DNA from: a bacterium
GTDB lineage: Bacteria > UBP15 > UBA6099 > JAJRTR01
NCBI GenBank assembly: GCA_024278215.1
Contig: JAJRTR010000063.1
Location: forward strand, 1-10,615
Direction: 5' to 3'
DNA length: 10,615 bases
The notes beneath the pieces were generated by a model, which had not been told where the DNA came from, did not search any database, and saw only the letters and a program-made list of their open reading frames with translations. Below are positions 5,011 to 9,826 of this stretch, in pieces. Numbering within the stretch: the stretch's first letter is position 1; the number at the start of each line of letters is the position of its first letter. The translations under genes were made by a program, and so were the position numbers.

Positions 5011-5046
5011 TGAGGCAAAAATGCCTCAAACGTGAGGCAAAAATGC
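5011..5046. promoter_or_regulatory. Palindrome plus repeated half-site, candidate enhancer site for a sigma-54 activator
   Basis: A perfect inverted repeat, TGAGGCA at 5011-5017 and TGCCTCA at 5022-5028 around AAAA, is followed by a second direct copy of its left half: TGAGGCAAAAATGC at 5011-5024 recurs at 5033-5046, an offset of 22 bases, about two helical turns. The sites lie roughly 120-155 bases upstream of the predicted sigma-54 transcript start, the usual distance for enhancer-binding activators. The hairpin begins 22 bases after the GH31 stop but has no T-run, so terminator function is less likely. The activator is not encoded in the window. Confidence 0.5.
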
Positions 5047-5140
5047 ACCATGCAAAGAGAAAAAATCGACTATTACTGCTCAATATCGGCAAATATTGTG
5101 TAAAATAGTTGAAAAATGCGGTTTTTAACCATAAAATAAT

Positions 5141-5156
5141 TGGCACGGATTTTGCA
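5141..5156 (+). promoter_or_regulatory. Sigma-54 (RpoN) -24/-12 promoter
   Basis: TGGCACG at 5141-5147, four bases, then TTGCA at 5152-5156 matches the full sigma-54 consensus (TGGCACG-N4-TTGCW). The invariant GG (5142-5143) and GC (5154-5155) are separated by exactly 10 bases. The predicted transcript start is about 5166-5167, which leaves a leader of about 250 bases before the ATG at 5417. Sigma-54 promoters need an ATP-dependent activator, so the large secreted protein downstream is probably expressed conditionally. Confidence 0.88.
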
Positions 5157-5170
5157 AAGAGATATTCAGT

Positions 5171-5346
5171 TGAGCCAGTTGTAAAATTATGTTCGAAGCG
5201 AGGTCGCGCGAAATTGGTCGGAAGCAAGGCGGAGGTGCAAAATCCCCGCAGGCGTACTTGTAGAGTAAGGATGATTTTGTGCCGACAACGCAGCTGTTGA
5301 CAGTTGCAGCCGGCCGTAGCCGAATCAGAATTTTGCAATTGGCTCA
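5171..5346 (+). ncRNA. Candidate structured leader RNA (unassigned; riboswitch-like or cis-regulatory)
   Basis: The RNA from the sigma-54 promoter would start about 4 bases before this element. Its ends form an 18-bp helix: 5171-5188 pairs with 5329-5346, with 16 Watson-Crick pairs, 2 G-U pairs and no bulge. Inside, 5234-5244 (GGTGCAAAATC) pairs over 11 positions with 5273-5283 (GATTTTGTGCC, 2 wobbles), and its loop can hold a small hairpin, TACTT/GAGTA, at 5255-5259 and 5263-5267. Next come a 7-bp hairpin (5290-5296 with 5301-5307, loop TTGA) and a 4-bp GC hairpin (5311-5314 with 5319-5322, loop CGTA). A weaker hairpin is possible at 5192-5212. The layout is a closing helix with a multibranch interior, as in many cis-regulatory RNAs. 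I could not match it to a known class. The alternative is a short MITE with 18-bp terminal inverted repeats, but no convincing target duplication is visible. Confidence 0.55.
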
Positions 5347-5380
5347 GTGTAAGGCTCCAGGAGCCTGTGCGGAAATTGCA
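5334..5380 (+). promoter_or_regulatory. Alternative hairpin overlapping the 3' strand of the leader helix
   Basis: TGCAATT at 5334-5340 can pair with AATTGCA at 5374-5380, enclosing a perfect inner hairpin in which AGGCTC (5352-5357) and GAGCCT (5361-5366) flank the loop CAG. The outer stem uses bases that the 18-bp leader helix also needs, so the two pairings exclude each other. GGCTC occurs twice (5341-5345, 5353-5357) and its complement GAGCC twice (5172-5176, 5361-5365), allowing strand exchange. The hairpin has no T-run and ends 22 bases before the Shine-Dalgarno sequence, so control of translation or RNA stability is more plausible than termination. Confidence 0.4.
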
Positions 5381-5401
5381 TAAATACAACTCACAATATA
5401 A

Positions 5402-5407
5402 GGGAGG
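5402..5407 (+). promoter_or_regulatory. Strong ribosome binding site for the FN3/dockerin protein
   Basis: GGGAGG lies 9 bases before the ATG at 5417, within a purine-rich stretch. It is a near-consensus Shine-Dalgarno sequence and fixes the start codon. It is much stronger than the sites of the neighbouring nadK and GH31 genes. Confidence 0.85.
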
Positions 5408-5416
5408 AAAAGGAAG

Positions 5417-8400
5417 ATGAGAAAATTGAGATGGATGACAGTCCTGGCGGTAGCGGTATATATGTTGCTGCTTGGCGCAGCCAAGGTTTCAGCGGATGAT
5501 GTGGAGTTTAAATTCACAATCCCCACTATTCCGGATACACCGATAATCGAGAGTGTAAGCAACTCCTCGGCAATTGCCGGTCAGGATTCATTCACAGTAT
5601 ACGCGACAATCAACGGACAGACACAGCTCGAAGCCTGCTGCAACGGCACGTGTACGCACGAATGTGAACCGAACTGCGACTTTTCCGCCTGCGAAATGGA
5701 AGACTACACCGGGCAGGCGGACCCGCGGGTCATTCCGAACCCGACATGTATCCCTAACGCAAACGACACGTCCGGCGGCAGCAACTCAAGCACATGCGGC
5801 GGCAAATCAGGGAACCCGAAAGTCTACTACTATTACAGCGGCGACACAAGCAACACAGCCAGTGTAGACATGACCTATAACTCGACAACCGGGAAGTTCG
5901 AAGGAGTTATCCCAATCACAGGATTAAGCGAAGGTGATGAAGTTACATACTATATCGTGGCTGTAGACAGCAGGGGAAATGTCGTAGCGCAAGTACCAGA
6001 CCCGGAAACAGCGCCCTGCACCACGATTTCCTCTTGGGCGTCCGAATACTCCACACCTGACATAGACAATTGCCAGTTCGCCAACAGCTATGAAGAGTGC
6101 GGCAAGTTTAAAAGTGGAACGCCAACCTGCTACTCAAGTAATAACACTGTTCGTGATATTGAAAATGATACATGTGATGTCGACGGAAACACGACATCGG
6201 GTCTTGGCCTTGTGGATATCCTCGGCTTTTCCGCCGGGGCAGGAAAAGGCTTTTCAGATATGCCCAATGATGTTGTTGTCTGTACACAGATTACTCTGGG
6301 CGCAAATCCTCCCGACCCGGGCACAAGCAGCGGTGCGATCGAAGCTTATCTCATGATATTTTTCAACCCCGACATGCCCGACTCAAACCCGTATGACGTA
6401 CACATGGAAAATGTTTTCGCCATTACCTACGCACCCGAAGCCGCCGGTGCAGACCCGAATCTGGTCAAGGTTCTCTGGGATGGCGAATGCGTAACAAACC
6501 CGAATACTGCGGATATCCTGGGCTGTAAACTCATCGTGGGCAGCCTGAGTGAAACAACGCTTCAGATCGGCGCGGCCGGCGGAAAACTCAGCTTCATCGC
6601 CAAAAACAGCCTGCCCAACGGCGACACCATTCTCGGCTCGACTCATAACTCGGCCAGGCTGATTATGGTAACCGGCGACATCGACCTCAGCGGCTCGACA
6701 CCCTTCTGGCTGGTCGACCTCAGCGTGGGCCTCAGTACCGTGAAAGAAAACAAGACAGTTACCGTTGAACAAGCGGGCAAACCGGCCGCTACGCTGGCTG
6801 TCAATCCCGGCGAATGTAAAGCCTCGGGAGCTTCTTCCTACACTACCGGCACATGCCCTCAGAGCACCTCGGAACCGGATTCAAACGAATGCAAGATCAC
6901 CCTGTACGCTTCGCCCGACGCGGGCTTTACAGGCGAATACAAGATTTATGTCAACACAGTCGACGACGCGAGTTCCGCCACTTATGACAGCTCTATCACC
7001 TCAAACATTTCCGGAACCAATTATTTCCAGTATGTTATCGGCGACGACACGGGAGAACTCCTCGACGGCAAGACATACTATTTCTTCTTTACGAGTGTGA
7101 ACGATTCGAACCCGGACATGGAAACCGACATGTCGGAGGCGGCAAAGTCAAAATGCACAGTAGAAGACTGGGTGCCGCCCGCCGCGCCGAACAGCATGTC
7201 GTGCGCCACGCCCGACGGCAACGAGGGTATATGCGAATGCACATGGAACATGGACACACTCACCGACCCATCCGTACAGGGGTTCTTCATCAGCCGTGAC
7301 TCCGTCAACCTCAATACCAGCCCATTTGGCGCAGTGCCGAACCAGTCGAGCTACCAGTACAGCTACACGGACAACGACACCACCACGCTGGAACTCGGCG
7401 GCGGCCCCTACACATACAGGATCAAGGCTCTCGACGCCGGCGGCAACCAGTCTACAGCAGCCGGCGACGGCAGCGACACAGACACGTGCACACCTGAAGA
7501 CCTCAAAAAACCCGGCAAGATCAGTTCGCTCTCCGTCACGCTCAAATCAGGCATATACGGCGTAGACCTTTCCTGGGAGCAGGGCGAAGACGAAGACCTG
7601 GCCGGCTACAATGTCTACAAGTGTGAGGTCAGCACAAGCGAGCAGACGGATTGCCAGACTAAAGACGACTACCTGACTGGCGGCTATAACGAAAAAATCA
7701 ACTCTTCTATGATTGACAACAGCGGGACACTGGAAGTTGATTCCGAAAACTTCCCGCAGACTGACACCATGTTCTGCTTCTGGGTGGAAGCCTGCGACAA
7801 CTGCGACACGGCAGGTACGTGCCCGAGCAAAACCACACCCAACTGCAGCAACCACGATACGACTACGATCTACAGAAAATGTCTCACGATAACGAGCGTA
7901 CCGGACCCATATAAGCCCGATCTGCCGACTTCAGTATCCACGACGGCGTCGGCGGTGGGCGGAGCGTGCGAGATCACTTTCAGCCGTGTAACATCCGACG
8001 ACGAAGGCGCATTCGAGAATTCGAGTTATCCCACACCGGTGGAACTCATGGGCTACTATCTGATGCGCACGGAAGCCATCGGCGGCGACTGTACAACAAC
8101 CCCCCTGGGTAATCCAGGCAACCTGGGCAGTTCCATCATAGCCGGAACAGTCACCGCCGCCCAGCAACTCGAAGATACTCTCGACACTACCGACGACAAT
8201 AACGGTGACGGCCTCACGAATGGGACCCAGTACTGCTATACCGTTTACTCTTATGATGCCGCAGGTAACTTCAAGACCGACACATTGACTTCCAGCCAGA
8301 TAGGATCATGCACACCGGCAGACACCAAGGCACCGGACAAACCGGTCATGGAGCCTATGGTGTTCGACGAGTATTCATGCACACCGAGCTGGGGCGCAGT

Positions 8401-9826
8401 GACAGACAAAGACTCCGTCACCTATAACGTCTACAGATGTGATGATAAAATAGAAAACTGCACAACGACTGGTGACTACGCTTTGCTTGGCGATGGAACC
8501 GGCATACAGACAACAACATTGCAGGACTATAATGTAACAACTGACGATGACTATACCTATTGTGCTTCAGCATTGGACCCCAGCTCCAACGAAAGCACTG
8601 TATATGAAAGTTCAGACCTGACAAACTGCCAGGTATGTACTCCTTCGAACAGGCCCGCGGCACCTGACGCGACAACTGCATGGCAATTCTCCGCTTCGCC
8701 GAACTACGGCGCGAAAGCATGCTGGACGGATTCCACCGACTACGATGTCGGCGGACAGGGCTACAACCTCTATGCCTGCAAGACGGATTGCAACGGCAAA
8801 GAAGCTTCCACCTGCTGTGACCTCCAGGTCGAAACAGGCTACACCGGCAGCCACGCTTGCACAGACGGCAACGAATGGGTAAAGAACACCATTACGGTGA
8901 CCGAGACGGCCGACTACTACATCGGCGTTACTTATGTAAACGACAACGGAATAGAATCGTTCGCGTCTCTCACAAGCAACGCAGTGAACATTGAAACGCA
9001 GGACGCGTGTGTTATCGACCCCAGTGTTTGCAAGACCGTTATTAAGCTGAAGAAGCCCGTCAAGAAGATGCTTGTAGAGGCCTGCACAGGAGCGGATATC
9101 GGCGACGCGACCGCTTGCAAGGCGACCGGCGAAGCGGCGACCGGCGGCTCATGCAAGTCCAACGGTATTATGAGAAAATGTGAAGTACCCCAGAGCGGCT
9201 TGAAAGTGGAACTGGTGCCGATTACCGGCAGTTCGAGAGCCGCCGGCAGAGATTACGGCACTCCCATCAAAACAGGGATCACGAACGCGAGTGGAACTGT
9301 CGAATTCATGGTTCCCGACTCAGACATCCAGGCTGGCACAGAGTATGTCGTCAGGCTGAGAGTCGACAACTACGATACCGCGATGGAAAACATGTGTGAT
9401 AACGATGCCTCCAGCGATGGTTTCTGTGGCATGGACCTTACAGACCCGGCGGAAATCGACACTTCCGGAGACACTGTGACAATGGAGGAGACACCGCCGA
9501 CACTGCCCCCGAACTCCAGCGACGGCGGCTTCACAGGCGACATCGGCAACTTTAATGGGGACGGAAATGTCAATGCCCTGGACCTTGCGAAACTAAAGCC
9601 TGCCTGGGGTTCCCCTCTGGGTACAGATTGCTACAGAACATGGGCTGACGTCAACATGGACGGCAACATCAATGCTCTTGATCTGGCAACCATCAAGGGC
9701 TTCTGGGGAAAACCTGTTGATTCAAGCGCCATCGATCCATCTGCTCCCGGTGCCATGGTGGCTGGCTATAAGATAGTGGACGGAGTGAAAACTCCAGAGA
9801 CATGGCCCCCGGACGAATGTAAATAA
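5417..9826 (+). CDS. Large secreted cysteine-rich protein with fibronectin-III-like repeats and a C-terminal dockerin-type domain
   Basis: The 1469-residue protein has a Sec signal peptide (charged start, hydrophobic core about 8-22, likely cleavage after VSA at 26). An Ig/FN3-like module follows (about 35-190, with EVTYYIVAVDSRGN), interrupted by a Cys-rich insert. Residues about 260-450 form a module I cannot name. From 453 to about 1180 there are roughly six FN3-like modules, several joined by a recurrent Cys-Thr linker: CTVED at 580, CTPED at 691, CTPAD at 965 and CTPSN at 1074. Residues about 1261-1322 resemble a transthyretin/Cna-like beta module. The end carries two dockerin-type calcium loops: NFNGDGNVNALD (1378-1389) and DVNMDGNINALD (1411-1422). 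I count close to 60 cysteines, about 4 percent, pointing to an oxidising extracytoplasmic location with many disulfides. No LPxTG motif, transmembrane anchor or PEP-CTERM signal is visible at the C-terminus. A role in adhesion or surface scaffolding is inferred. No catalytic domain was recognised. Confidence 0.85.
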   Translation: MRKLRWMTVLAVAVYMLLLGAAKVSADDVEFKFTIPTIPDTPIIESVSNSSAIAGQDSFTVYATINGQTQLEACCNGTCTHECEPNCDFSACEMEDYTGQADPRVIPNPTCIPNANDTSGGSNSSTCGGKSGNPKVYYYYSGDTSNTASVDMTYNSTTGKFEGVIPITGLSEGDEVTYYIVAVDSRGNVVAQVPDPETAPCTTISSWASEYSTPDIDNCQFANSYEECGKFKSGTPTCYSSNNTVRDIENDTCDVDGNTTSGLGLVDILGFSAGAGKGFSDMPNDVVVCTQITLGANPPDPGTSSGAIEAYLMIFFNPDMPDSNPYDVHMENVFAITYAPEAAGADPNLVKVLWDGECVTNPNTADILGCKLIVGSLSETTLQIGAAGGKLSFIAKNSLPNGDTILGSTHNSARLIMVTGDIDLSGSTPFWLVDLSVGLSTVKENKTVTVEQAGKPAATLAVNPGECKASGASSYTTGTCPQSTSEPDSNECKITLYASPDAGFTGEYKIYVNTVDDASSATYDSSITSNISGTNYFQYVIGDDTGELLDGKTYYFFFTSVNDSNPDMETDMSEAAKSKCTVEDWVPPAAPNSMSCATPDGNEGICECTWNMDTLTDPSVQGFFISRDSVNLNTSPFGAVPNQSSYQYSYTDNDTTTLELGGGPYTYRIKALDAGGNQSTAAGDGSDTDTCTPEDLKKPGKISSLSVTLKSGIYGVDLSWEQGEDEDLAGYNVYKCEVSTSEQTDCQTKDDYLTGGYNEKINSSMIDNSGTLEVDSENFPQTDTMFCFWVEACDNCDTAGTCPSKTTPNCSNHDTTTIYRKCLTITSVPDPYKPDLPTSVSTTASAVGGACEITFSRVTSDDEGAFENSSYPTPVELMGYYLMRTEAIGGDCTTTPLGNPGNLGSSIIAGTVTAAQQLEDTLDTTDDNNGDGLTNGTQYCYTVYSYDAAGNFKTDTLTSSQIGSCTPADTKAPDKPVMEPMVFDEYSCTPSWGAVTDKDSVTYNVYRCDDKIENCTTTGDYALLGDGTGIQTTTLQDYNVTTDDDYTYCASALDPSSNESTVYESSDLTNCQVCTPSNRPAAPDATTAWQFSASPNYGAKACWTDSTDYDVGGQGYNLYACKTDCNGKEASTCCDLQVETGYTGSHACTDGNEWVKNTITVTETADYYIGVTYVNDNGIESFASLTSNAVNIETQDACVIDPSVCKTVIKLKKPVKKMLVEACTGADIGDATACKATGEAATGGSCKSNGIMRKCEVPQSGLKVELVPITGSSRAAGRDYGTPIKTGITNASGTVEFMVPDSDIQAGTEYVVRLRVDNYDTAMENMCDNDASSDGFCGMDLTDPAEIDTSGDTVTMEETPPTLPPNSSDGGFTGDIGNFNGDGNVNALDLAKLKPAWGSPLGTDCYRTWADVNMDGNINALDLATIKGFWGKPVDSSAIDPSAPGAMVAGYKIVDGVKTPETWPPDECK

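Follow-up and report, generated by a model that had tools for sequence, protein, structure and literature searches.

A hairpin between a sigma-54 promoter box and a dockerin gene is a MITE copy whose widely shared core appears to be selected as a single-stranded fold

In the stretch of DNA analysed here (the window, 10,615 nucleotides), a strongly self-complementary segment lies between a sigma-54-type promoter box and a gene for a large protein. The question that this arrangement raises is whether the segment is a structured leader RNA belonging to that gene, possibly a new cis-regulatory class controlling a large secreted protein, as a sequence-only reading had proposed. The promoter part of that proposal is confirmed: the box, TGGCACGGATTTTGCA (5141-5156, forward strand), has the consensus sigma-54 layout TGGCACG-N4-TTGCA with no mismatches and is the sole such match in the window, and RpoN is encoded in the window's genome. 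The segment starts 16 bp downstream of the box, which lies outside it, and 71 bp separate its end from the start codon of the downstream gene (5417-9826, forward strand). This gene is likewise not part of it and encodes a 1469-residue protein in which there is a dockerin type I domain. A transcript from this promoter, with its predicted start at about 5166, would carry the hairpin. Some 85-130 bp upstream of the box, at 5011-5054, there are two direct repeats of TGAGGCAAAAATGC with a 22-nt period and 77% identity, which are a plausible candidate for an enhancer-binding site.

We will argue that the segment is one copy of a miniature inverted-repeat element (MITE), a kind of non-autonomous DNA transposon, and that the core of this element is under selection as a folded single strand. 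We assign this joint reading a probability of about 90%.

A blastn search of 5150-5420 against its own genome finds about 40 more copies, near-full-length or partial, that are 87-96% identical. End to end, 39 full copies can be aligned, and the unit that they share, GAGCC...GGCTC, corresponds to 5172-5345 of the window, while the flanks vary from site to site. The own-genome copies, their alignment and a scan for ends thus delimit a copy of 174 bp on the forward strand, the family consensus being about 179-180 bp. The aligned copies have terminal inverted repeats, GAGCCARTTGCAAAATT...AATTTTGCAATTGGCTC. In the window, both the sequence and the copy alignment place the left one, GAGCCAGTTGTAAAATT, at 5172-5188 on the forward strand and the right one, which reads GAGCCAATTGCAAAATT on the reverse strand, at 5329-5345. 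Of the 39 full copies, 28 lie between exact 4-bp target duplications, compared with 1.5% expected from combining the left flank of one copy with the right flank of another. The window copy has an imperfect duplication in this alignment, AGTT (5168-5171) and AGTG (5346-5349), which agree at three of the four positions.

The element is also short (174-180 bp), non-coding and present in many dispersed copies. Allowing up to three mismatches, 647 inverted-repeat ends are found in the 4.55 Mb genome and none with a reversed-pattern control, which corresponds to roughly 300 copies; a covariance model of the core gives at least 150 matches in the same genome. When 20 of the repeat ends were sampled, 15 could be paired into elements, and 13 of these 15 are full-length and contain the core. 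We conclude that 5172-5345 is a MITE copy inserted between the sigma-54 box and the dockerin gene. The 18-bp closing helix described earlier, 5171-5188 with 5329-5346, does pair at 18 of 18 positions with two G-U pairs, and it is formed by the terminal inverted repeats that bound this dispersed element. The sequence-only reading had itself named scattered copies of a MITE as the observation that would tell against a dedicated leader RNA, and such copies are what the genome contains.

Some smaller observations were made on these copies. The remaining two of the 15 sampled elements (L267 and L280) are deletion derivatives of 106-107 bp without the core apex, and since L267 retains an exact 4-bp duplication, the core is possibly dispensable for movement. 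There are also solitary GAGCCAATTGCAAAA ends for which the partner end was not found in the fetched locus (e.g. L170 1638, L173 2176 and L181 1583), and these are either remnants or the ends of longer elements. Several of the 207 contigs of the genome (e.g. L025, L029, L035 and L047) start or stop inside a copy, and the repeat probably accounts for part of the fragmentation of the assembly.

The window region folds with -86.9 kcal/mol, more stable than its dinucleotide shuffles (z = -3.87), and for the consensus of the family the core strand reaches -84.5 kcal/mol, compared with -64.4 kcal/mol for its complement. Of the internal helices proposed earlier, the one between 5234-5244 and 5273-5283 is found again, pairing over 11 bp. 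On the basis of folding and the copy consensus, these are the 5′ and 3′ strands of the core stem P1 (forward strand), which covaries across families. The two others, 5290-5296/5301-5307 and 5311-5314/5319-5322, are absent from the 39-copy consensus fold, in which there are long-range pairs instead, for example 5311-5315 with 5202-5206 and 5302-5305 with 5212-5215. Inside P1, the copy alignment and the consensus fold define a conserved core, CC-GCA-(P2 hairpin)-GA-GG-A, at 5246-5272 on the forward strand. It is important to point out that the window copy lacks five nucleotides here, CGTCG between 5267 and 5268, that nearly all other copies have. This loss breaks the 3′ strand of P2 and the conserved GA, and with the apical motif broken, the long 5′-UTR hairpin is expected to affect the dockerin gene only incidentally.

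That the hairpin is nevertheless a riboswitch-like leader dedicated to the secreted dockerin protein is in our view very improbable. It does sit in the predicted 5′ UTR right after a perfect sigma-54 box, and its fold is very stable. However, a dedicated leader is difficult to reconcile with hundreds of dispersed copies with target duplications, or with the damaged core in this very copy. Nor is there one class of co-oriented gene downstream of the elements: an all-against-all comparison of 346 neighbouring ORFs gave ubiquitous families only and no recurrent neighbour, and the orientation of elements relative to neighbouring genes is inconsistent (15 ++ and 5 -- in the own genome, 14 ++ and 24 -- in other genomes). 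The suggestion of a new regulatory class for a large secreted protein is thus left without support. As neither a gene family nor an orientation is linked to the fold, it would appear to serve the element. In four genomes, tRNA genes (Cys; Leu and Cys; Leu; Val) are located within about 140 bp of core elements (L215 1400-1578, L220 1385-1810, L221 1302-1576 and L223 1501-1676). A general association with tRNA genes was considered and rejected, with 7 core-tRNA pairs within 500 bp among the 169 cores scanned in the fetched loci.

With Rfam 15, at both gathering and permissive thresholds, there is no match for the window and none at the core in 20 relatives, in agreement with the earlier statement that no known riboswitch or ncRNA consensus could be recognised. 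The core elements resemble Rfam riboswitches and cis-regulatory RNAs in having a covarying structure with conserved unpaired positions, and differ from them in having no Rfam match and no linked gene class, and in spreading as a transposon.

The core is not confined to this genome. A distant genome contains a 77% match to the inner 69 nt alone (query 55-123), in an element that has different ends. We turn to a scan of contigs, one genome per species, with the core pattern CCGCAGGCRTAN{4,12}TAYGTCGAGGA, which matches at least 114 stretches in many phyla. What recurs in them is CC-GNA-(hairpin)-GA-GG-A, enclosed by a stem whose sequence varies freely. Among the matches listed, many are from Desulfobacterota, and there are also Planctomycetota, Acidobacteriota, Nitrospira, Spirochaetaceae, Clostridiales, Veillonellaceae, Selenomonas, Actinomycetota, Binatota and others; these genomes are mostly metagenome-assembled, and some of the taxon labels are perhaps wrong. 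The covariance model R1 finds the core in 33 of 386 sampled genomes (about 9%), or 32 of 327 genera, and in one Desulfobacterales genome it finds at least 150 copies. On plasmids, a distant blastn search gave no match to the window element, and the pattern scan of viral contigs gave a single match, around which no inverted repeats are detectable. In a Nitrospira defluvii MAG (L102 273-699), three cores are arranged in tandem about 175 bp apart.

These elements have the core in common and differ in their ends. Clearly different inverted repeats flank the core, for example GTGTCCATCCGGAAAT, GAAGCCATCTCAAAATA, GGGCTTGTCCGTAAATAA, CCTAAGTTGAGCGATTTT and GCCCGCATTTCTCACC, and the target duplications differ as well. 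Like the window family, family A has 4-bp duplications (5 exact, 0.6 expected). Families B and E have TA on both sides, and family C has TWA; these were read off the listed flanks, since swapping the flanks is no useful test where the target sequence is fixed. A 5-bp duplication is present in three of the four copies of family D, and families D, E and F have few copies each. The differing ends together with duplications of 2, 3, 4 and 5 bp suggest that different transposase families would have moved these elements. In one Acidobacteria MAG (the genome of L109), two elements, L242 and L254, have interiors that are 94% identical over 133 bp and unlike ends. The end pair, CCCGCATTTCTCAC and CCCGCATTATTCATGAA, is partly similar, the inverted repeats being given as GCCCGCATTTCTCAC and ACCCGCATTATTCATGAA, and the comparison may reflect either a natural end replacement or a fast divergence of the ends.

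Next, we consider the evidence that the fold itself is selected. Across 58 diverse cores, 92.2% of the cells are paired, and 190 cells are changed on both sides, compared to 62 in shuffles. The covariation score is 0.480, while it is 0.120 for shuffled and at most 0.138 for slid controls, so compensatory change exceeds both. Stem P1, which the search pattern leaves unspecified, is 79% paired, compared to 43% when shuffled, in 40 families that are less than 60% identical. Relatives that were found by the model, and not chosen by the pattern, behave in the same way: some have lost a G and its partner C jointly, and others have C-G replaced by U-A.

The fold furthermore depends on the strand. Of 65 families, 62 have a core strand that folds better than the complementary one, and 60 still do when only the arms are considered. 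The mismatches in the arms are strongly unequal, with 372 G-A against 60 T-C and 227 G-T against 136 A-C, and tandem 5′-GA-3′/5′-GA-3′ mismatches occur 72 times, compared to none of the opposite-strand equivalent; since the families are related by descent and no phylogenetic correction is applied, these counts are not independent events and p-values are indicative only. In double-stranded DNA, the two mismatch classes are equivalent, being the same thing seen from either strand, and the asymmetry thus indicates a folded single strand. Taken together, the sequence comparisons point to selection acting on the single-stranded fold of the core, as RNA or as single-stranded DNA. What had been proposed as a structured RNA is accordingly borne out in its selected fold, with strong compensatory change across phyla and strand-specific folding, and not in its role as the leader of this gene. 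An apparent 11-nt phasing of the G-A loops (positions 24 and 35-36) was dropped, as the spacing of successive loops is broad.

It is improbable, in view of this, that we are dealing with an ordinary MITE whose functionless core is kept by descent, with inverted repeats that drift faster than the interior. The two Acidobacteria elements with their partly similar ends do demonstrate that within one genome the ends can outpace the core in change, and copies without the core exist. Passive descent, on the other hand, does not give a free exchange of stem sequence with pairing maintained, it leaves the 72:0 strand asymmetry of the tandem G-A mismatches unexplained, and it does not account for a single core being surrounded by several types of ends, whose duplications measure 2, 3, 4 and 5 bp. 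A more serious option is that the core acts in single-stranded DNA, which would fold when replication or transposition exposes it, for instance as a dock for a host protein or as a structure shielding the palindrome from hairpin nucleases. The strand-specific fold is equally compatible with single-stranded DNA and with RNA, it is as DNA that the elements move, and their orientation relative to genes is inconsistent. This would lead one to look for a bias toward the lagging-strand template, but GC skew, in counts that are uncorrected for relatedness or gene strand, shows none: 17 of 30 own copies are on that template and 49 of 136 elsewhere, the latter a weak trend in the opposite direction. 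In addition, the G-U-type pairs outnumber the A-C ones, which is somewhat better for RNA. We consider the DNA option unlikely, and these two observations give a weak preference for RNA over single-stranded DNA.

Finally, there are other palindromic repeats to which the elements could belong. The tagged palindromes with GTAG or CGTC are 20-40 bp long and have that tag unpaired, the GTAG type being linked to HUH transposases (PMC3733652). Like REP/BIME sequences and these palindromes, the core elements are high-copy, intergenic and found in several phyla, and the known repeats are thought to act partly as RNA hairpins (PMC3733652). If the elements belonged to the REP or CGTC/GTAG superfamilies, which RAYT (HUH) transposases mobilise, this would account for a palindromic, intergenic, high-copy and multi-phylum repeat (PMC3733652), but such membership is hardly credible here. 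The core elements are about 125-190 bp, with the window family at some 180 bp, and have inverted repeats and target duplications of 2-5 bp; the CGTC is paired within the P2 stem and is not an unpaired tag before AT; and there are no RAYT genes among the recurrent neighbours.

Bacterial MITEs with hairpin transcripts are well known (PMC10969869). Correia/NEMIS, ERIC, Nezha, Chunjie (from Geobacter uraniireducens) and QMITE, reviewed in the same article, share with the present elements that they are short and non-coding with inverted repeats and target duplications, that they are high-copy and mostly intergenic, and that their transcripts would form long hairpins. The difference, as judged from their description in the review, is that here a covarying, strand-specific core is common to elements with unrelated ends in many phyla. 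In the open-licence literature we found no earlier description of the core by sequence or topic, and individual families may have been described before. We class the window feature as a MITE, and what appears to be new is the shared core, which we read as marking a MITE superfamily defined by its interior.

As to how such a core might work, the hairpin would act single-stranded, most likely as RNA arising by read-through or by transcription from the element, and would serve the element rather than the neighbouring gene. A transposase would have recognised the inverted repeats in trans. None of the loci inspected in the 207-contig draft, three with DDE_Tnp_1 and 14 whose ends are atypical, holds an autonomous element with the same ends, and far copies of the known ends in other loci do not form a transposon pair around a transposase. 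One doubtful guess is that the core makes transcripts that cross the insertion tolerable: the tandem G-A mismatches would interrupt the helix and leave double-strand RNases with a poor substrate, and a widely conserved host factor would bind to the conserved apical motif.

The usual view of bacterial MITEs is that they are passive leftovers of insertion sequences and that nothing but their ends is of importance. In the present elements, it is the ends that vary, and the non-coding interior is constant and appears to be under selection for folding as a single strand. This suggests that the success of such elements in many hosts is aided by a non-coding structure. It is possible, at somewhat less than even odds, that the core stands for a large class of structured RNA (or single-stranded DNA) modules, undescribed so far, that travel in MITEs moved by several unrelated transposase types across many phyla, the module and not the inverted repeats being the constant part. 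If so, non-autonomous transposons would have in this module a non-coding engine or shield in common. Two of the core carriers, Geomobilimonas luticola JCM 17780 with 7 core matches and Oryzomonas japonica Red96, are cultured strains, which makes the role of the core testable.
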